From Paratractidigestivibacter faecalis (GTDB lineage Bacteria > Actinomycetota > Coriobacteriia > Coriobacteriales > Atopobiaceae), in assembly GCF_003416765.1 (NCBI RefSeq), contig NZ_QSNG01000001.1, positions 1,638,742-1,702,741 on the forward strand: a stretch of DNA of 64,000 nucleotides. The letters run 5' to 3'. Every line of letters begins with the position of its first letter. Position 1 is the stretch's first letter. The notes beneath the pieces are model-generated. The model saw only the letters and a program-made list of their open reading frames with translations, had not been told where the DNA came from and did no database searches. Of this stretch, positions 21,096-31,169 are shown piece after piece. A program made the position numbers and the translations under genes.

Positions 21096-21524
21096 CTACT
21101 CCTCGGGCATCGATTCAAGCTCGGCCATTACTTGTTCAAGGTCCTCCGCGACATAGTCCTTCTCCATCTCATACTGAGCACGCACCGTCTCACTGGAGAG
21201 GAGACTGACCCTAAGCGCTGGAACGTCAATCGTGGCTGAAACCCAAGCCATGTCGAGGTCAATGTTCTTGTAGTCGTGAACTATGAAGTTGCGCATCCCC
21301 TTGACCAGGCGCCACGGAATGCCCGGAAAGGCCTCCAGCGACTCAGGCCCTTCAACGTGAGATACAAGCTCTCCGATACGGCTCAGAGAAAGAAGGACGG
21401 AATCCCTCGCATAGCGGTCGAGCGGCCAGCTACTTCCATCAAGCGAGAAGCGCTCGATCTTGCCCGCGACATCGTCGCAGCACTGGATCATCTCGACGAA
21501 GACCTCGACGTCTCTAGCGAGCAT
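21096..21524 (-). CDS. HepT-like ribonuclease toxin (type VII toxin-antitoxin)
   Basis: 142 residues, all-helical HEPN/DUF86 type. The catalytic and modification motif Rx4HxY is present as R78 NFIV H83 D Y85. In studied MntA-HepT pairs the antitoxin AMPylates the Tyr of this motif to silence the RNase. The gene overlaps mntA by 11 bp. The second half (YEMEKDYVAEDLEQVMAELESMPEE) is an acidic helix. Confidence 0.85.
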   Translation of the reverse strand: MLARDVEVFVEMIQCCDDVAGKIERFSLDGSSWPLDRYARDSVLLSLSRIGELVSHVEGPESLEAFPGIPWRLVKGMRNFIVHDYKNIDLDMAWVSATIDVPALRVSLLSSETVRAQYEMEKDYVAEDLEQVMAELESMPEE

Positions 21525-21855
21525 AGACGAGCCTTCCGTCGGCCTTTACCGAGTCGACGAATCGCCTGGAAGCTCCCGCAAGCGACGTCAGGCAGTCCAC
21601 ATCACGGCCCATTCCCGAGGCCAGGCTCTCTCCGAGCGCGTAGCGAGTGCTCGAGCTTGTCTCCGGATCAAACAGAACCAGGACGTCAACGTCGGACGAG
21701 GGCGTCTGCTCGCCACGGGCGAACGAGCCAAAGAGTGCGGCGCTTCTGACCGAAGGGCAGCTTAAGCATGCGGCGTGTAGCACCGCCGCAGCGGACTTTG
21801 CGTCTGCAACGGGCTCGCAAGCCGCAGCGGGACAGTCTTCGACGCGGTACTTCAT
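21514..21855 (-). CDS. MntA-like minimal nucleotidyltransferase antitoxin
   Basis: 113 residues with the nucleotidyltransferase signature GSFARGEQTPSSDVDVLV: G43-S44 and the metal ligands D55 and D57. Upstream partner of the HepT-like gene, in the antitoxin-first order usual for this type. Translationally coupled by an 11-bp overlap. Flanked on both sides by dispersed repeats, which suggests a mobile or hot-spot location. Confidence 0.85.
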   Translation of the reverse strand: MKYRVEDCPAAACEPVADAKSAAAVLHAACLSCPSVRSAALFGSFARGEQTPSSDVDVLVLFDPETSSSTRYALGESLASGMGRDVDCLTSLAGASRRFVDSVKADGRLVYAR

Positions 21856-21945: not shown

Positions 21946-22104
21946 GCGCCACGGATTGCGGGGTTTGGCAGGCGAGAAGGGCTTCTCGCCTGCAAAGCGC
22001 CACGGATTCGACGTCTTGGCAGAAAATCCGTGCCATACCCCGGTATTCGTGGCGCCAAAGGCCCCGTTGGCGAGAAACGCGTGCCAAAGCCCGGAATCCG
22101 TGGC
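21946..22104. repeat. dispersed intergenic repeat, family 2, copy C
   Basis: Starts GCGCCACGGATTGCGG, then GTTTGGCA, the palindrome GGCGAGAAG GG CTTCTCGCC (21971-21990), TGCAAAGCGCCACGGATT, GTCTTGGCAG and a closing TATTCGTGGCGCC. A second half (22060-22104) ends CCAAAGCCCGGAATCCGTGGC, roughly the inverse of the start. About 110 bp is shared with 28786-28895. Confidence 0.8.
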
Positions 22105-22127: not shown

Positions 22128-23012
22128 CTAACGAAGCACGCGGTCGAGGATGCCTTGGGCAGTCAGGAGGTAGACGAGCTTTGCGCGCTCGGTCTGGACG
22201 TAGACGTCCTTCTCCACGGCATCGCGCAGGGGCAGGCGGGGCATGCGGAGCACCGTGGCCTGGCCGACCTGCTCCGTGGGAAGCTCGTCCATGTTGACGA
22301 CGGTAATCCGGTCCGTCGCGCCGCCCGTGTCAGTGGCAATGCGGGCATAGGGGTGGCTCACCAGGCAGTATGTTGCTCGGGGAACCGCGGCCTCCCAACC
22401 CGCCGGGTAGCGCTTGGGCTCAAGAAAGAGCAGGTACTCCTGGCCTTCGCGCATGGGAGCCAGACCCGCGCCAGAACCGCCCTCGGATTCCGCGATGATG
22501 CGGTCAGCCCCAAACTGGGCGTTGTCGCCCGTGGAGGCGAGGCCGTCCTCCTTGACGAGGTAGCCCTCCATGACGTCAATGACGTCACCGGCGGCAAGCC
22601 CTTCTCCCTTGATTACGGAAGTGATGATCACCCGCTCGCGAAAGGCGTGGTAGACGTAAGAGCGCTCCCCCGTGAAGGTACCTACCGCAATGACGGGCGC
22701 GATCTGCTCCACGTTGTCGAAGGCCATAACGTAGCGCTGCCGGGCCTCCTCGAGCGTGATGTCGTCAAGGGTCAGGCCCTCGGCGTCGAGCTGGGCCATG
22801 ACGTCGCCGCTGGTGTAGAGGCCGATCATGCCCTCGGACCCCGGACTCACGCGGTAGTCGATGTCATCCAGCGCAGGCTCACCCGCGTTGACGTCCGTCA
22901 GGCTGAGCCGCATGCCCACGGCGACAACGACGCAGACCGCCAGCATGGCGCCAAGGATGGCGGCAAAGCGCCTGGGTCCCATGGGCGCAAGCCTAAAGTC
23001 GCGCGCCCTCAT
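22128..23012 (-). CDS. membrane-anchored extracytoplasmic protein of an ABC operon
   Basis: 294 residues. A single N-terminal TM anchor (about 16-36, FAAILGAMLAVCVVVAVGM) precedes an extracytoplasmic part. The pattern APVIAVGTFTGERSYVYHAFRERVIITSVIKGEGLAAGDVIDVMEG ... REGQEYLLFL resembles the netrin/TIMP-like (NTR) OB-fold pattern seen in some secreted bacterial proteins. Last gene of a five-gene operon, 3 bp after the ATPase gene. An immunity or chaperone role for the exported product is possible but not shown. Confidence 0.6.
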   Translation of the reverse strand: MRARDFRLAPMGPRRFAAILGAMLAVCVVVAVGMRLSLTDVNAGEPALDDIDYRVSPGSEGMIGLYTSGDVMAQLDAEGLTLDDITLEEARQRYVMAFDNVEQIAPVIAVGTFTGERSYVYHAFRERVIITSVIKGEGLAAGDVIDVMEGYLVKEDGLASTGDNAQFGADRIIAESEGGSGAGLAPMREGQEYLLFLEPKRYPAGWEAAVPRATYCLVSHPYARIATDTGGATDRITVVNMDELPTEQVGQATVLRMPRLPLRDAVEKDVYVQTERAKLVYLLTAQGILDRVLR

Positions 23013-23015
23013 GCG

Positions 23016-23696
23016 TCAGCCCTCCCCCGTCACGCGGCCGTCCGCCATGTTGTAGCGACGGTCGCAGAGCGCCTCCAGGGTCGGCTCGTTGTGGCTCGCC
23101 ACCAGTATGGTCGCGCCGCGCTCACGCTCCTCGGCAAGAAGCCCGACCACCATCGCAATGCCGTCCACGTCAAGCGCGTTGGTGGGCTCGTTGAGCACCA
23201 ACAGCTGCGGCCGCTCCATGACGGCCTGCGCGATGGAGAGCCGCTGCCGCATTCCCAGGCTATACGCCGAGAAGGGCCTGGCGTCGTCGGGGTCAAGGCC
23301 CACGCGACGCAGGGCGGCGTCCACCTCCGCCGGGCCGATGACGCCGCGGATGGACGCCAGCGCGAGGAGGTTCTTGCGGCCGGTCTTCTCGTCAATGAAG
23401 CCGGAGGGGCCAAGGACTATGCCCATGTCCGAGGGAAAGTCCGCGTCACGGCCAATGACCTGGCCAAAGACGCTGACGCTGCCAGAGGTCAGATGAATGA
23501 GGCCGCCCACGGCACGGAAGAGCATGGTCTTGCCAGAGCCGTTGACGCCAGCGAAGCCGTAGATGCCGCCACGGGGCAGCTCCAGGCTCACGTCATCCAG
23601 GACGGTTCGACCCTTGACGACCTTGGTTGCATGGCTGATGGCGATGAGGTCATTTGAGGCACCGGTATTTGCGGCACCGTTCACGGTAACGGTCAT
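23016..23696 (-). CDS. ABC transporter ATP-binding protein, Walker B Asp replaced by Asn
   Basis: 226 residues of the short bacteriocin/antibiotic-export ABC type. Walker A is GVNGSGKT (50-57), the signature is YSLGMRQRLSIAQA (about 145-158), and the H-loop is ASHNEP. Walker B reads LLVLNEPTNALD: Asn169 replaces the usual Asp, while the catalytic Glu170 is kept (codon AAC confirmed). Hydrolysis could be altered. It precedes the anchored protein and follows the permease genes in one operon. Confidence 0.88.
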   Translation of the reverse strand: MTVTVNGAANTGASNDLIAISHATKVVKGRTVLDDVSLELPRGGIYGFAGVNGSGKTMLFRAVGGLIHLTSGSVSVFGQVIGRDADFPSDMGIVLGPSGFIDEKTGRKNLLALASIRGVIGPAEVDAALRRVGLDPDDARPFSAYSLGMRQRLSIAQAVMERPQLLVLNEPTNALDVDGIAMVVGLLAEERERGATILVASHNEPTLEALCDRRYNMADGRVTGEG

Positions 23697-23707
23697 GGCG
23701 TCTCCAA

Positions 23708-24448
23708 TCAGAGGATGTCGCAGCGCGCGACGGAACGCGCCAATGCGAGTGCGGCCAGAAGGCCAAGCACGGCGAGAAGTGCGCAGGACCCGGCGACGTC
23801 CATTCCGGCGGCGTCATGCCAGGCAAGCACCGCTCGCGCGGACGGCAGCCACGGCACCACCGGCACGGCAGCCGCAAGCGGCGCGTAGGCAAGCCCCATC
23901 AGCGCCGCAGCGTGAACGCCCAGCACAAGGGCCGCGGATACCACGGCGTCGATCCAAAGGGCCGCAAGGTTTGCGAGCAGGGTCAGGATCAGCGAGGCCA
24001 GAAGCTCCAGCGGCAGGGACGCGGCAAAGGTCGAGAGTGCTCCCGCGGGAAGCCCGCCGGCATCGGTCAGCGCGAGGACCAGCGCAGCCGCAGCGTTGCC
24101 CGCAAGCACGTAGTCCAGGCAGAGCGCCGCCAGCGTGAGCGTCCTTCTGGCTGTCCAAGCCGTCCGCGTGCCCAGGCGCGGCATTGCGCACGACGCCTGG
24201 GTCGTAAGCCCCGCAGGCACAAAGTCGCAGGCCAAAAACACGAAGATGGCCTGGGGAAGCAGGCAGGCCAACATGAGCATGGCGTCGGGACGGCCCTCGA
24301 GCTGCGAGACAAACGCCGCGCCGGCAACGTACTGGCCGAGGGCAAAATCCGCACCAGACTGGGCCAGCCACCAGACGACCAGCGCCTTTGCGGCAATAGC
24401 GGCAGCCAGGGCGCCGAGCGTTTCTCGCCTGACGTCAAGTGCCGACAT
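23708..24448 (-). CDS. ABC-2 type permease-like membrane protein (third)
   Basis: 246 residues, Ala/Leu-rich, about six predicted TM segments. No soluble domain. Overlaps the upstream permease gene by 14 bp and lies 11 bp before the ATPase gene. The three membrane genes of this operon are divergent in sequence but similar in size and layout, like the permease sets of bacteriocin or lantibiotic exporters. Confidence 0.65.
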   Translation of the reverse strand: MSALDVRRETLGALAAAIAAKALVVWWLAQSGADFALGQYVAGAAFVSQLEGRPDAMLMLACLLPQAIFVFLACDFVPAGLTTQASCAMPRLGTRTAWTARRTLTLAALCLDYVLAGNAAAALVLALTDAGGLPAGALSTFAASLPLELLASLILTLLANLAALWIDAVVSAALVLGVHAAALMGLAYAPLAAAVPVVPWLPSARAVLAWHDAAGMDVAGSCALLAVLGLLAALALARSVARCDIL

Positions 24449-25187
24449 CTTCCGCGCCTCCCTCCAAAAAGTCGGCCCGCCTCGAGAGGCGCAGGCACAG
24501 CAGCAGGAGAATCAAGACGAGCGTGGCTAGGCGGGCAGCACCGGGAAGCGACGCCGGAGGGTCTGCCGGATCTGCGGAGAGCACGAGCAGCCATCCCATC
24601 TGGAACTCCTCAGACACCAACGGAAGGGGCGCCAGGCTGAGGAGCACCTCGTAGCCTGCGTAGAGAAGCGCCGGCACGATGGCAAGAACGCCCCATCCCC
24701 ACACAAGGCGACCGGCAAGCATGGCCATGCCAGCAGCGGCAAACCAGAGCGTGCCCAGCACCAGCTGCTGCGCGGCAAAGATGGCGACGTCAGGGGGAGC
24801 AAACGTCGTACCCGCTTTGACAAACGCCGCCGCCAGGCCAAAGGCGAGCTGGACGGCCTCAAAGACGACACCTCTGGCCACCAAGGCGACGGCGCACCGG
24901 AGCGTTGCTGCCTGCCGAGAAGGGCCGCGCACGAGCGACGCCGGGTGACCGAGACGGCTCATCTCTCCGCTGACGCCAAGGGCGTACAGCGGAAGGAACA
25001 CGCAGGTGGCAAGGCCAAGGCCACAGAAGCGCTCGTAGGCGGCGGGCAGGGTGATGGCCGGGTCGAGGAGGGTCTCATCGACGGGAGAGGCCAACGCGGC
25101 CGCGCCCAAGACGGCAAGCACCGCGAGGGCCAGCAGGAAGCCGCGGTCAACCAGCGGCGCGGCGCGGTACAGGCCACGGGCGCTCAT
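24435..25187 (-). CDS. ABC-2 type permease-like membrane protein (second)
   Basis: 250 residues with about six hydrophobic segments. It starts MSARGLYRAAPLVDRGFLLALAVLAVLG and has an acidic C-terminal tail (FLEGGAEDVGT). Overlaps the first permease gene by 4 bp (ATGA). No family motif beyond topology. Confidence 0.65.
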   Translation of the reverse strand: MSARGLYRAAPLVDRGFLLALAVLAVLGAAALASPVDETLLDPAITLPAAYERFCGLGLATCVFLPLYALGVSGEMSRLGHPASLVRGPSRQAATLRCAVALVARGVVFEAVQLAFGLAAAFVKAGTTFAPPDVAIFAAQQLVLGTLWFAAAGMAMLAGRLVWGWGVLAIVPALLYAGYEVLLSLAPLPLVSEEFQMGWLLVLSADPADPPASLPGAARLATLVLILLLLCLRLSRRADFLEGGAEDVGT

Positions 25188-26038
25188 AGCAGCACGTCCC
25201 TTCTGCAGCTGGCGAGAAGGGCAACCGCCACCAGGGATAGCGCCAGCACGCCCAGGGGCTCAAGAACGAACGCAGCCGGCGAGTAGTCAACGTTGCCGTA
25301 GTCCAGAAGGAGGCTCGTCATGAGGCCGTAGGGGTTGAGCGCCTGGGGCAGCACCATGTTCGCGACGATAAAGAGCAAGGCGGGAACGCCGATGGCGACG
25401 AGCCTGTTGCCGCCGGCGCGGAGCGAGACGGCATAGGCCGCCGCAGCCCCCACACCTGACCACAGGGCCGCCTGGACGCAGTAGAGGACATTGCAGAGCA
25501 GGCGGCTCTGCGTGCGAAGGCTGCCAAAGAGCCCTTCGGAGAGCATGTCCAGGCCATCGGCGCCCGCGGTCCAAAAGCCGAGGAGACAGTAGGCATCGGG
25601 GCTTGCCACAGCAGGAAAGGCCAGGTAGGCAAGGAGCTGGGAGGCCACGAGCGTGGCCAGCATCACCGTGAACGCGGCGAGAAACGCCGAGATGGCGCCC
25701 GCGAGCACAAAGTCCACCAGCGAGGAGCGGGTTGCCGCGTTTGTCGCCAGGCCGTTCTTGACGTCTGAGCAGAAGCTGTCACCAAAGATCGCGGCCGCAA
25801 GCGGAAGCATCAGGTAGTTAATGAAGTACAGGAAGGGCTGCGTCCTCATGGCGGTGGTGTTGCCGGCCCATGCGACGGCGGCCAAGGGAAGCTCCGCCGC
25901 GTCATGCCCCCAGAACAGCAGGCACGTCTCGCAGAAGCAGACGCACATGAGGCCAAGGCAGAACAGCGCCACGTACGGCAGCGTCTTGGACCCAAACGCC
26001 CGCCGGAGCTGGAAGCAAAGCGTGCCGGAGAACCTCAT
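25184..26038 (-). CDS. ABC-2 type permease-like membrane protein (first)
   Basis: 284 residues with about six TM segments. A cytoplasmic start (MRFSGTLCFQLRRAFGSKTLPY) is followed by a TM and a loop, then IFGDSFCSDVKNGLATNAATRSSLVDFVLAG, the typical coupling-loop region of ABC-2 permeases (F..D...G......R). First of the ABC genes. It follows a hairpin 19 bp upstream and the secreted-protein gene. Confidence 0.7.
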   Translation of the reverse strand: MRFSGTLCFQLRRAFGSKTLPYVALFCLGLMCVCFCETCLLFWGHDAAELPLAAVAWAGNTTAMRTQPFLYFINYLMLPLAAAIFGDSFCSDVKNGLATNAATRSSLVDFVLAGAISAFLAAFTVMLATLVASQLLAYLAFPAVASPDAYCLLGFWTAGADGLDMLSEGLFGSLRTQSRLLCNVLYCVQAALWSGVGAAAAYAVSLRAGGNRLVAIGVPALLFIVANMVLPQALNPYGLMTSLLLDYGNVDYSPAAFVLEPLGVLALSLVAVALLASCRRDVLL

Positions 26039-26056
26039 GACGCACCACCCCTCTGC

Positions 26057-26088
26057 GGCTCCGCCGGGGATTCTTCCCCGGCGGAGCC
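26057..26088 (-). terminator. hairpin between secreted-protein gene and ABC genes
   Basis: GGCTCCGCCGGGGA (26057-26070) and its exact complement (26075-26088) with a 4-nt loop, 9 bp after the secreted-protein stop. No T-tract follows, so it may be a partial terminator or mRNA stabiliser, as often found between a peptide structural gene and its transporter genes. Confidence 0.65.
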
Positions 26089-26096
26089 CGACGAAG

Positions 26097-26486
26097 CTAC
26101 CTCACGTTAAAGCAATAAGAACCGCTAAGCGTCGCGTTGCCAGAGTGATTTGCTTTGCCATACAAAGAAACGGATCCGGAGAACTGCGTGTTATAGGTCA
26201 TCTCTCCCGTCCTTCTCTGGGAAACCAGAACGACCGATGAACACTGCCCCACGGACGGCAAATATACGTAGAAATAGCCGGGGGAGACACATCCCGAGTT
26301 AACGCTCACTGTGGCCTTGTTGTAGGCACTACTATGGTCACCATTCGCGATTTGCCTATATGAGGTATTGCTTAGGCTGCTGTTATACGTCCCACTGTAT
26401 GAGGCAAATGCCGGAGCCACAAATCCACCCATCATAAGCAGCGACAGAGCAAAGCCCACAAGAAACTTCTTAACCCGTTTTTCCAT
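26097..26486 (-). CDS. small secreted protein, possible bacteriocin-like product of the ABC locus
   Basis: 129 residues. A classical signal peptide (EKRVKKFLVGFALSLLMMGG then APAFAS) predicts cleavage after about residue 28. The mature protein of about 100 residues is Ser/Asn/Tyr/Gly-rich (SYSGTYNSSLSNTSYRQ, SVSLYGKANHSGNATLSGSY), weakly charged, and has three Cys. The composition fits a beta-rich secreted protein and is reminiscent of the lactococcin-972 group, but I do not see that family's full motif. Start chosen at MEKRVKK behind GGAAGGTG. Local GC is clearly lower than the neighbours. Confidence 0.7.
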   Translation of the reverse strand: MEKRVKKFLVGFALSLLMMGGFVAPAFASYSGTYNSSLSNTSYRQIANGDHSSAYNKATVSVNSGCVSPGYFYVYLPSVGQCSSVVLVSQRRTGEMTYNTQFSGSVSLYGKANHSGNATLSGSYCFNVR

Positions 26487-26632: not shown

Positions 26633-28567
26633 TCACTTGTGAGGTGACACCTTGTCATCCTCAGGCAAACCGACCTCTTGCTGAAGAATAAATCGCAGGT
26701 CGTCCATGGTGTTTATACCCAGCTTCTCGTAGGCCCGAGAGCGAAACGTTCCGAGGCTGCCAGACGAGACGTGGCGGCGTCCGCAGACCTCATTGGGGCT
26801 CACTCCCAGCGCAAGAAGGGCAATGGCCTCAGCCTGAGTCTCACTCAAGCCTCGGCCGCGCAAATAGAGCGTTGAGCGCGCGGCAATGTCCAGGGGCATG
26901 GGGCCAGCGGACGTATCCTTTGCGTTTTTAATCGCGCGCAAGCAGAGAAACGCGACCGCAATTGCAAGGAACTCGACAAGGAGGGGGACTCCGGCAGTGA
27001 CGCCCGGTGGGTCGTTTCTATACGCAAGGCAGTCAAGCAGGTTGAGCGAAGCGACGCATGCAATCACGTGCCAAACGTTCAAACCCGCAAAGCCCAGAAC
27101 GCCCTGCCGCAACACGCCAAGGCCAAATTTCCCACCGCTTGCCTCAGCACCCTGCGCAATCAGCAGCAGCAACAAACAGATTGCCGCATAGGCACAAGGC
27201 ACGGCTGAGCCGACATGCTGTATTGCAGAATGAACGCCATACGCCTGGAGCACTGAATAGACGGCACCCGCCAATACGAGAGAGCGGGAGCTCCTCCGAC
27301 AGGCGCCCCGCTCCGTATCAGACGCGGCGGCAAACACGCAGCCCATCAGCAGAGCCACGGCTCCAGCGCCTCGCGTTAGATAGGTTTCCCAGTCAGCAAG
27401 TTGTGGAAAGATGCCCCTCAGCACTAGGGGCACCAACAGATTCAGCACCACAGCCATAAGTGCATACGACCCGCGAAGGAATGCAGAACTCGAATAGATG
27501 GGCCTCTTCACCGTATCTGAGGCCTCCCGAACATCCTGCCGTGCCCTTTGAATCAGCTCGCTCTTATCCGCAACGGATAGCTTCTGATACGCCCTTCTTC
27601 GCAGGGTTCCAACGCTTGATTTGCTGATCCCGAGTTCTACGGCTATCTGGCTGTCTGACATGCCTGAAATCGTCAGGCTTGCCACCTCGCGCTCTCGCGG
27701 CGACAGGCGGACGGCGCCATCGAACTGGTCGAGAACGGCGGACGCATCGACCTCAAACACCTCGGAAACAGTTGCCCCTCCGACGGACGCTTTTCTCGCC
27801 AGAACGCACAAAGCCGCAGATGCGAACGCCGCGAGAACGCAAACGATCAGGACGCCGAGCATCAGCTGGGTCCCAACGGGATTGGCGGCCGGTTGCCCCC
27901 ACCAGAGCATCCAAAGCAGAAGCTGGCCAGCGGTATAAAAGGCCGCAAAGCGCGATGAGAGCATGCCTGCGCGGCGAAGGATTGTCAGCAGGAGCCCCAT
28001 TGTTGCGGCAGACCCGACGCATATCAAAAGCGGAAATCTCGCAAACGCAAAGAACGATGTCCCGGCTAGGCCCATCGTGGCGAGCGGGCATACAGCTCCT
28101 ACGCAAAAGGCGATTGCTCCGGAAATCCCCGAGCCATTACTGTCACCCCCTGGGCAGCCATGCATCCATCCAATCTGTGCGAGAAGGCCAAATGTAAATT
28201 CGGAAAGAACCAGCCAACCGCCATAGCTACGGTAAGCCGGCGAGTCGTAGCCGATGCAGGAGACGAAGATTTCAACCGCGAGCAGCGCAACGGTCGACAG
28301 CAAGCCAACCGCAACAAGCAGCGATCTAGCCCTGCCCTCAATCAGCGATCTCGTCTTTCCTCCCAAAAGCGGGAGAACTAGCTCGCCTAGAGCCGCGGTA
28401 AACAAAGCGATGGAAATCAGATATATGGCTGGCAGCCCCGGGGCGCTGGGCTCGACGCCCCATCTAACGATGCGGGGAATGCCCGCAAGCAGCGCGGAGC
28501 ACATGAGCCAGAGGTGCCAGGTCGACTTGCCCTGGTTTCGACTTCCTTTATCTTCCTCTTTGCCCAC
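26633..28567 (-). CDS. membrane-bound LuxR-family regulator with two TM+HTH modules
   Basis: About 644 residues with a GTG start behind GAGGAG (a TTG nine codons upstream is the alternative). Module 1 has about 6-7 hydrophobic segments and then a LuxR HTH (RLSPREREVASLTISGMSDSQIAVELGIS, about 287-345). Module 2 has another set of TM segments and then a second HTH (GLSETQAEAIALLALGVSPNEVC, about 572-635) at the C terminus. Coriobacteria have many multi-TM proteins with one C-terminal LuxR HTH; two tandem modules in one chain are unusual. Upstream of the secreted-protein gene on the same strand, so it may control it. Confidence 0.85.
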   Translation of the reverse strand: MGKEEDKGSRNQGKSTWHLWLMCSALLAGIPRIVRWGVEPSAPGLPAIYLISIALFTAALGELVLPLLGGKTRSLIEGRARSLLVAVGLLSTVALLAVEIFVSCIGYDSPAYRSYGGWLVLSEFTFGLLAQIGWMHGCPGGDSNGSGISGAIAFCVGAVCPLATMGLAGTSFFAFARFPLLICVGSAATMGLLLTILRRAGMLSSRFAAFYTAGQLLLWMLWWGQPAANPVGTQLMLGVLIVCVLAAFASAALCVLARKASVGGATVSEVFEVDASAVLDQFDGAVRLSPREREVASLTISGMSDSQIAVELGISKSSVGTLRRRAYQKLSVADKSELIQRARQDVREASDTVKRPIYSSSAFLRGSYALMAVVLNLLVPLVLRGIFPQLADWETYLTRGAGAVALLMGCVFAAASDTERGACRRSSRSLVLAGAVYSVLQAYGVHSAIQHVGSAVPCAYAAICLLLLLIAQGAEASGGKFGLGVLRQGVLGFAGLNVWHVIACVASLNLLDCLAYRNDPPGVTAGVPLLVEFLAIAVAFLCLRAIKNAKDTSAGPMPLDIAARSTLYLRGRGLSETQAEAIALLALGVSPNEVCGRRHVSSGSLGTFRSRAYEKLGINTMDDLRFILQQEVGLPEDDKVSPHK

Positions 28568-28647
28568 TGGCCCACGTCTCCTCGCAATATGCAAGTTGGA
28601 ATCAATCTGAGTCTAGGGACAATGGGGCGTTCTTCCGTCCATTATTC

Positions 28648-28785: not shown

Positions 28786-28895
28786 GCGCCACGGATTGCG
28801 GGGTTTGGCAGGCGAGAAGCGCTTCTCGACGGCAAAGCGCTACGAAAAACGGCGTCTTGGCAGCAAATGCGTGCCAAGACGCCGAATTCGTGGCG
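28786..28895. repeat. dispersed intergenic repeat, family 2, copy D
   Basis: Starts GCGCCACGGATTGCGG, carries the palindrome CGAGAAGCGCTTCTCG (28813-28828) and ends AATTCGTGGCG. Homologous to 21946-22055. It lies just downstream of the aldolase operon stop and could provide its terminator: GGCGTCTTGGCA and TGCCAAGACGCC at 28851-28883 form perfect 12-bp arms. Confidence 0.8.
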
Positions 28896-30501: not shown

Positions 30502-30560
30502 TGAATCTCCTCTTGGTGTCTTTCAGTGTTGCTGGCCAGCTCAGGCGCTGGCGAGAATGG

Positions 30561-31169
30561 CTACTTGCCCTCGCGGATGGAGGCGCCCAGGGCTCCGCCG
30601 GGGTGCCACTTGACGTACTGCTTGGGGTCAAGGCCGAACTCGTTCTGCAGCAGGATGGAGAGGCACTGGAGCTCGATGATCTCGGCCAGGATGGAGGCGC
30701 GCGGCGGCTTGTTCATGGAGTCGCCCTCCTGGTCGACGCCGGCGATGAGCGCGACCTCGGCCTCCTTGGCAAGCCAGCTGTTGGGGTTGCCGGTGAGGGC
30801 GATGATGTGCACGCCCACGCCCTTGAGGCAGGTGACGGTGCTCTTGAGCTCGCCCGTCTCGCCGGAGTTGGAGATGGCAATCACGACGTCGCCGGGGCGG
30901 GTCTGGCCGGCAGAGCCGTGGACGCACTCGGTGCCGTGAAGCTCGTAGGTGGGGGTACCGGTGGAAGAGAACAGGGAAGCGGCGTAGCCAGAGACGTGGC
31001 CGGGCTTGCCGATGCCGGTGACGTGCAGGCGGTTGCCCTTGGCCTCGGCGTCAAGGATGAGCTGCTTCGCGGCGGAGAGGGCCGCAAAGTCAATGCCCGC
31101 GACGTACTTGTCCACGGACTCCTTGGCAATGCTCAGGAACTCCTGAACCTGCTCCTTATCTGTTGCCAT
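30561..31169 (-). CDS. SIS-domain sugar-phosphate isomerase
   Basis: 202 residues, a single SIS domain of the KdsD/GutQ type: VTGIGKPGHVSGYAASLFSSTGTPTYELHGTECVHGSAG, ISNSGETGEL, and HPGGALGAS at the end. It lacks the two CBS domains that follow in arabinose-5-phosphate isomerases. Probably interconverts a phosphorylated ketose and aldose or pentose in this pathway. Confidence 0.85.
   Translation of the reverse strand: MATDKEQVQEFLSIAKESVDKYVAGIDFAALSAAKQLILDAEAKGNRLHVTGIGKPGHVSGYAASLFSSTGTPTYELHGTECVHGSAGQTRPGDVVIAISNSGETGELKSTVTCLKGVGVHIIALTGNPNSWLAKEAEVALIAGVDQEGDSMNKPPRASILAEIIELQCLSILLQNEFGLDPKQYVKWHPGGALGASIREGK

Follow-up and report, generated by a model that had tools for sequence, protein, structure and literature searches.

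The bacteriocin lactococcin 972 carries a Sec signal, and in LanFEG systems an ATPase together with small hydrophobic permeases protects the producer. In loci of the lactococcin 972 type, the structural gene is described as followed by presumed ATP-binding cassette (ABC)/immunity genes, and some strains are reported to be without a functional bacteriocin (PMC11796350; PMC4055356); the functions of B and C themselves are said there to be unverified (PMC11796350). Here we describe a gene cassette of Paratractidigestivibacter faecalis, found in a stretch of 64,000 nt (contig NZ_QSNG01000001.1, positions 1,638,742-1,702,741; "the window" below), in which a gene for a small protein with a Sec signal (A) is followed by genes for three permease-like proteins (P2-P4), an ABC ATPase (P5) and a membrane-tethered protein (P6), and is preceded by a regulator gene (P7). 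We regard A as a putative Sec-secreted bacteriocin-like protein and P2-P6 as its LanFEG-like ABC immunity system, with a probability of roughly 0.6.

By analogy, the cassette may work like a lactococcin 972 locus provided with a LanFEG-like transporter, being a member of neither group by sequence. As in lactococcin 972 and streptococcin B, an unmodified protein (reportedly a beta-sandwich in those systems) is encoded first in an operon, before presumed immunity/ABC genes, and as in streptococcin B a regulator gene stands directly upstream (PMC11796350). In contrast to these systems, each cassette has two or three small permeases, accompanied by a tethered NTR-like protein, mature A has about 101 aa, and the A proteins scanned are without PF09683. 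The match to this family considered in an earlier note, which was made from the sequence of this DNA alone, did not appear at E≤1 for A of the window and ten A proteins (hmmscan, run without a positive control); genome searches for PF09683 were empty as well, but are weak evidence because their built-in control matched nowhere. Membership in the lactococcin 972 family was rejected on sequence; P5 also stays far below the cut-off of TIGR03608 (82.9 bits; cut-off 254.85). The likeness to LanFEG lies in the ATPase, for which the best NCBIfam model is galliderm_ABC (lantibiotic protection ATPase; E 2.4e-34). However, its 118.9 bits are below the cut-off of 309.75, none of the permeases has a family match above cut-off, A carries a Sec signal and the window encodes three permeases. 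LanFEG membership thus failed the sequence tests, both at the galliderm_ABC cut-off and for LanE/LanG-type permeases.

Protein A and the genes that follow it

All cassette genes are co-directional on the minus strand and would be transcribed in the order P7, A, P2, P3, P4, P5, P6. P7, which is part of the locus, lies 146 bp upstream of A; A is followed by P2 after 58 bp, P2 and P3 overlap by 4 bp, P3 and P4 by 14 bp, and P4 and P5 are separated by 11 bp and P5 and P6 by 3 bp. The layout read in the earlier note (A, a 14-bp hairpin without T-tract, three permease-like genes, an ATPase and an anchored protein) proved right for all six open reading frames (ORFs), and so did the low G+C content of the A gene, which is 0.495 versus 0.651 for the window (0.85% of all 390-bp segments, taken at step 30, are equally low).

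A begins with a Sec signal (MEKRVKKFLVGFALSLLMMGGFVAPAFA; about residues 1-28, cleaved between APAFA and SYSG), where a hydrophobic segment was also computed. Its relatives have such a signal too, and A is thus predicted to be secreted. The mature protein is rich in Ser, Asn, Tyr and Gly, and no lipobox, anchor or sorting signal was seen in the sequence by eye. No Pfam or NCBIfam family matched A above cut-off, and no PADLOC model at E≤0.1; the earlier note had described the mature product, of some 100 aa, as not clearly fitting a known class. Weak family matches (best E 0.0027 and 0.0084 in Pfam, 0.0093 in NCBIfam), each involving one or two members, were set aside as chance or signal-region hits, and sequence searches of solved structures with alignments of A, P6 and X (a second small secreted protein, see below) gave nothing meaningful.

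AlphaFold models were calculated for mature A, with five relatives from related loci added. The best one (predicted local distance difference test score, pLDDT, 90.9; predicted template modelling score, pTM, 0.84) has eight strands and no helix, i.e., it is an all-beta sandwich; the remaining four models reached pLDDT 80.5 to 83.2. The predicted fold is a jelly-roll-type sandwich whose neighbours in Foldseek and VIA (subtilisin-like protease domains, GOLD, CBM6, PirA, YPM, Ena subunits; best VIA Z 8.4) include no diagnostic one. Lactococcin 972 is not among the fold-search matches listed, which excludes nothing. The structure prediction suggested in the earlier note therefore delivered a fold, but could neither prove nor exclude an adhesin, as folds of this kind are very common.

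Among the downstream proteins, neither Pfam nor NCBIfam gave a match above cut-off for P2, P3, P4 and P6, and PADLOC gave none for them at E≤0.1; P2-P4 are unmatched by any NCBIfam model even at E≤1, and P2 also by any Pfam model at this threshold. PADLOC returned just generic ATPase matches for P5 and helix-turn-helix (HTH) matches for P7, and the Pfam scan found no peptidase domain in P5. The AlphaFold model of P6 (pLDDT 73.8) most frequently matched NTR/TIMP-like domains (agrin NtA, TIMP, complement C3/C4/C5). This likeness of its extracytoplasmic domain is suggestive only, since no match had a Foldseek E-value ≤0.001 and Z was at most 7.5.

Recurrence of the cassette, one-sided loss of A and co-divergence

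A single-query search with A found matches in 5 of 140 genomes of the same family. In the class, of which 396 genomes were sampled, a profile built from seven A proteins gave 27 matches in 24 genomes; 13 of them were strong (E<1e-12) and 14 weak (E 8e-7 to 7e-4, most over the signal region only; the three in G267, G221 and G056 were opened). In a sample of 346 genomes of the phylum, a profile of ten A proteins matched two, namely the own genome of the window and one of the same order. The P2 profile reached further, to 17 of the 140 family genomes and 40 of the 396 class genomes, the weaker ones being distant, and found nothing among 72,556 plasmid records. Records matched by P2 belong to Olsenella sp. 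KH3B4, an uncultured Olsenella sp., RUG13628 and RUG11916 (Coriobacteriaceae), and OH1046 and Cf509_bin7 (Coriobacteriales). Four cassettes are present in the own genome of the window.

Our census comprises 29 opened cassettes in which P2 matched at E≤4e-19 (the window, L009 twice, L010-L014, L062-L072, L094-L102, L107). Two of them (L094, L107) are cut by contig ends, and 27 uncut cassettes were counted. Transporter matches in G100, G101, G104 and G105 (which share the genus of G091/G099 and score almost identically) are left out, as are most P2 matches weaker than 1e-18, from which L073 and L103-L106 were opened. P4 was not detected in L071, L072, L095-L098 and L100-L102.

Recognisable A genes number 15 (11 intact, 4 broken) and are all located in one bacterial order, taken as Coriobacteriales. 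Each of them stands directly before P2, with P3, P5 and P6 downstream; as this arrangement recurs at 15 places in 12 genomes (window included), it is not due to chance. The co-occurrence of A homologues with ABC genes, raised in the earlier note, was thus without exception (15/15), and a transporter-less homologue, which that note had named as a refutation, was not found among the recognisable A genes. A is intact in 11 of the 27 cassettes (the window, L009 twice, L010, L011, L012, L014, L071, L072, L096, L101) and broken or apparently deleted beside an intact transporter in five (L013, L062, L063, L069, L070). The other 11 (L064-L068, L095, L097-L100, L102) have no recognisable A, although an over-diverged A could hide there.

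In L013, the 5' part of A is lost. L062 is without A and shows 85% identity to L010 over 108 columns, which start just behind the place where the stop codon of A would be, span the hairpin and reach into P2, a pattern consistent with a deletion of A. The A frames of L063 (codon 39, TAG), L069 (codon 43, TAG) and L070 (codon 49, TAA) are each interrupted by one in-frame stop and are otherwise open; these three stops, in different genomes, all fall within 11 codons, a clustering that may be chance. In all five cassettes P2-P6 match their profiles over essentially the full length, L069 being the most divergent and weakest. Conversely, P2, P3, P5 and P6 are free of stops in 10 of the 11 intact-A cassettes, those tested, and L011 has full ORFs for these genes; an intact A beside a broken transporter was not seen among the 27 uncut cassettes. 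By length A has a share of 9%, and the naive probability of finding all five breaks in A is 6e-6 (7e-4 for the three stops alone), values that are indicative only because relatedness is ignored and a P2-based search favours intact P2. The dependence is one-way: A depends on the transporter, and the transporter does not depend on A. For the ABC genes, this one-sided loss favours immunity, which the earlier note had suspected, over the export it had also proposed; the latter found no support, given the Sec signal of A and the 11 of 27 cassettes whose transporter is without a recognisable A.

Furthermore, A has diverged together with the first two permeases. In the co-divergence set (10 of the 11 intact cassettes; L011, near-identical to L012, was left out), the distances of mature A correlate with those of P2 (r 0.77), P3 (0.73), P6 (0.48) and P5 (0.41). 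Given P5, the partial correlations are 0.78 for P2 and 0.71 for P3 (0 of 5000 permutations each) and 0.26 for P6 (257 of 5000). This fits permeases that recognise A.

Hairpin, regulator, second secreted protein and neighbouring elements

The hairpin between A and P2 has a z of -4.7; none of 200 shuffles folds as stably, and a T-tract does not follow. At the corresponding site, z is ≤-2 in 8 of 13 foldable A-P2 junctions (window, L010, L011, L012, L063, L070, L096, L101), -1.9 in L062 and above -1 in L009a, L013, L069 and L072; the junctions of L014, L009b and L071 are too short to fold. When 20 permease bases are included (without shuffles), the stem in L009a, L013 and L069 runs into the permease start. 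The hairpin is probably an mRNA 3'-stabiliser or attenuator that would allow more A than transporter to be made. Scans for promoters (1 site, 1.0 expected) and terminator-like sites (5, with 6.8 expected) stayed near expectation or below it.

P7 has one Pfam GerE match (HTH, residues 297-350), with hydrophobic segments on both sides of this domain; by eye, a second HTH-like stretch is present at its C terminus, where Pfam reports one stretch in all. A P7-like gene is located directly upstream, with only A or X in between, in the window and in L010, L012, L014, L062, L063, L065 and L071. Among the four other P7-like genes of the own genome, two adjoin L014 and L062, and these are the top-scoring ones after P7 itself. 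Membrane LuxR proteins are reported to be common in Coriobacteriia, three of them activating catechol-metabolism genes (PMC9734109), and adjacency therefore supports, but does not prove, control of the cassette by P7, which we consider probable from its position and domains. Like DadR, HcdR and CadR as described in that work, P7 combines a LuxR-type HTH with many membrane helices (PMC9734109); unlike them, it has membrane segments on both sides of GerE and the second C-terminal HTH-like stretch noted above.

In six cassettes there is another small secreted protein, X, which ends in YSW and is encoded between the regulator and A or just upstream of A (Table 1); the window is without X. A short ORF with a signal sequence, seen by eye at the X position of L062 and not listed by the X search, may be an X remnant. 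Pfam matched X only weakly (best E 0.0069), and these hits were attributed to chance or to the signal region. A and X possibly form a two-component system. Two distant ABC cassettes, L073 (G040) and L103 (G172), encode another small secreted protein with VWSPDC or AWSPDC near its end; it has no Pfam match, so a resemblance to DUF2712 is not claimed. These cassettes are perhaps a parallel family with the same logic. Another family of the class also has remote A-like secreted proteins, whose genes (L074:6974-7558, L076:7211-7708) precede one for an ABC ATPase.

Adjoining the cassette in the window (21096-21855, minus strand) is a gene pair for a HepT-like ribonuclease (PF01934) and a nucleotidyltransferase (PF18765/PF01909), by its domains likely a HEPN/MNT toxin-antitoxin module. 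The palindrome-like repeat GGCGAGAAGGGCTTCTCGCC gave, at ≤3 mismatches, 9 strand matches at 5 places of the window with 0.02 expected, and two of its copies flank the cassette region.

Table 1. Coordinates of the cassette genes, of X in other cassettes and of the repeat (positions refer to the window unless a cassette is named)
Feature	Position	Strand	Remark
P7, membrane LuxR-type regulator	26633-28594	-	GerE HTH, membrane segments; probable cassette regulator
A, 129-aa Sec-signal protein	26097-26486	-	putative secreted bacteriocin-like protein
Hairpin, 14-bp perfect stem, 4-nt loop	26057-26088	-	between A and P2
P2, permease-like membrane protein, 284 aa	25184-26038	-	family marker for finding cassettes
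P3, permease-like membrane protein, 250 aa	24435-25187	-	
P4, permease-like membrane protein, 246 aa	23708-24448	-	
P5, ABC ATPase, 226 aa	23016-23696	-	nearest NCBIfam model galliderm_ABC, below cut-off
P6, one N-terminal membrane helix and extracytoplasmic domain	22128-23012	-	putative immunity accessory
X	L010:5790-6269		
X	L011:7-420		5' end cut by contig
X	L012:10145-10627		
X	L014:10070-10540		
X	L063:9051-9512		
X	L071:8695-9096		
Copies of the GGCGAGAAGGGCTTCTCGCC repeat	122-141, 2557-2576, 21971-21990, 28811-28830, 30550-30569		

Proposed function and competing explanations

We propose A as a bacteriocin-like protein and P2-P6 as its immunity genes because A depends on the transporter but not the reverse, and because A is often knocked out; such one-way dependence, together with the co-divergence of A and the permeases, is expected from a costly secreted antibacterial protein and a transporter for self-protection. 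In this scheme, the membrane LuxR-type P7 would turn on the operon headed by A. A, a small folded beta-sandwich, would be exported by Sec, freed by signal cleavage and act at the cell surface to harm sensitive bacteria, which would probably be relatives. Owing to the hairpin, mRNA of A would stay more plentiful than that of the downstream genes, while an ABC-2-like exporter of three permeases and one ATPase would clear A, alone or in complex with its target, from the outer side of the membrane, and the membrane-tethered P6 with its NTR-like extracytoplasmic domain would assist self-protection.

Several points weigh against this proposal. The antibacterial action of A is a prediction, none of the bacteriocin families in the libraries searched matches A by sequence, and jelly-roll-type sandwiches as predicted here are common in lectins, carbohydrate-binding and other domains. 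As the permeases are without family assignment, the ABC-2/LanFEG analogy relies on the ATPase and on hydropathy. The sample of breakages is small, with two of the five (L013, L062) in one genome and the deletion in L062 being inferred; finding cassettes by way of P2 introduces a bias against those in which P2 is broken; and transporter damage does occur in A-less cassettes (a split P2 in L100, a P3 match within a short ORF in L099). Co-divergence would also be expected if A, P2 and P3 moved as one recombination block.

The strongest competitor, in our view unlikely, is that A serves as an accessory extracytoplasmic binding protein or secreted shield: the ABC transporter would pump peptides made by others, which A (with X) would bind or decoy. 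Transporters without recognisable A (11/27), the proximity of P5 to lantibiotic-protection ATPases and the co-divergence of A with the permeases would all suit such a detoxification function, but A shows no lipobox or anchor by eye and is lost while the transporter stays, and in LuxR-linked cassettes having A, A (with X) directly follows the regulator. It is rather improbable that A is an adhesin or carbohydrate-binding protein to which the transporter is linked for other reasons. Its predicted fold does resemble GOLD, CBM6, CBM86, lectin and protease-domain sandwiches (VIA Z up to 8.4), yet models that lack a clear match typically have their best Z at 7 to 8, as the tool itself notes, a sorting signal or anchor was not seen by eye, and linkage is to the same permease in 15 of 15 cases. 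We give very little credence to A being a protein pheromone that the membrane LuxR-type regulator senses. The regulator is adjacent in eight cassettes including the window, and 12-transmembrane-segment LuxRs of Eggerthella lenta are reported to respond to specific substrates by activating catechol dehydroxylase genes (PMC9734109), but several A-bearing cassettes (e.g., L009, L072, L101) have no P7-like gene in the stretch examined, and L062 and L065 have regulator and transporter without A. That the ABC genes are a dedicated exporter of A is similarly far-fetched: strict linkage would fit, but A has a typical Sec signal, the ATPase gene has no Pfam peptidase domain and transporters persist without A.

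Taken further, the cassettes might represent a previously unnamed class of folded, unmodified, Sec-secreted antibacterials of Coriobacteriales, occurring as A or A+X forms. Immunity would come from a multi-permease ABC transporter that evolves along with the product and from a tethered NTR-like protein, and the class would have diversified into four cassettes in a single genome; we put this forward tentatively, at slightly less than even odds. In literature on bacteriocins of Olsenella or Coriobacteriia, no title or abstract opening among the matches listed points to a bacteriocin of the A kind; no paper was found on NTR domains with ABC transporters, and the titles and abstract openings on Sec-dependent beta-sandwich bacteriocins indicate nothing relevant.

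The idea of a producer with its own immunity is itself known, and A matches no family in the libraries searched. If A is antibacterial, Coriobacteriales would have a competition system that is open to test and that forms a sequence-unrelated parallel to lactococcin 972. The specificity of immunity permeases could then be mapped by comparing natural paralogues, and the A-less transporters would predict which strains resist which products.

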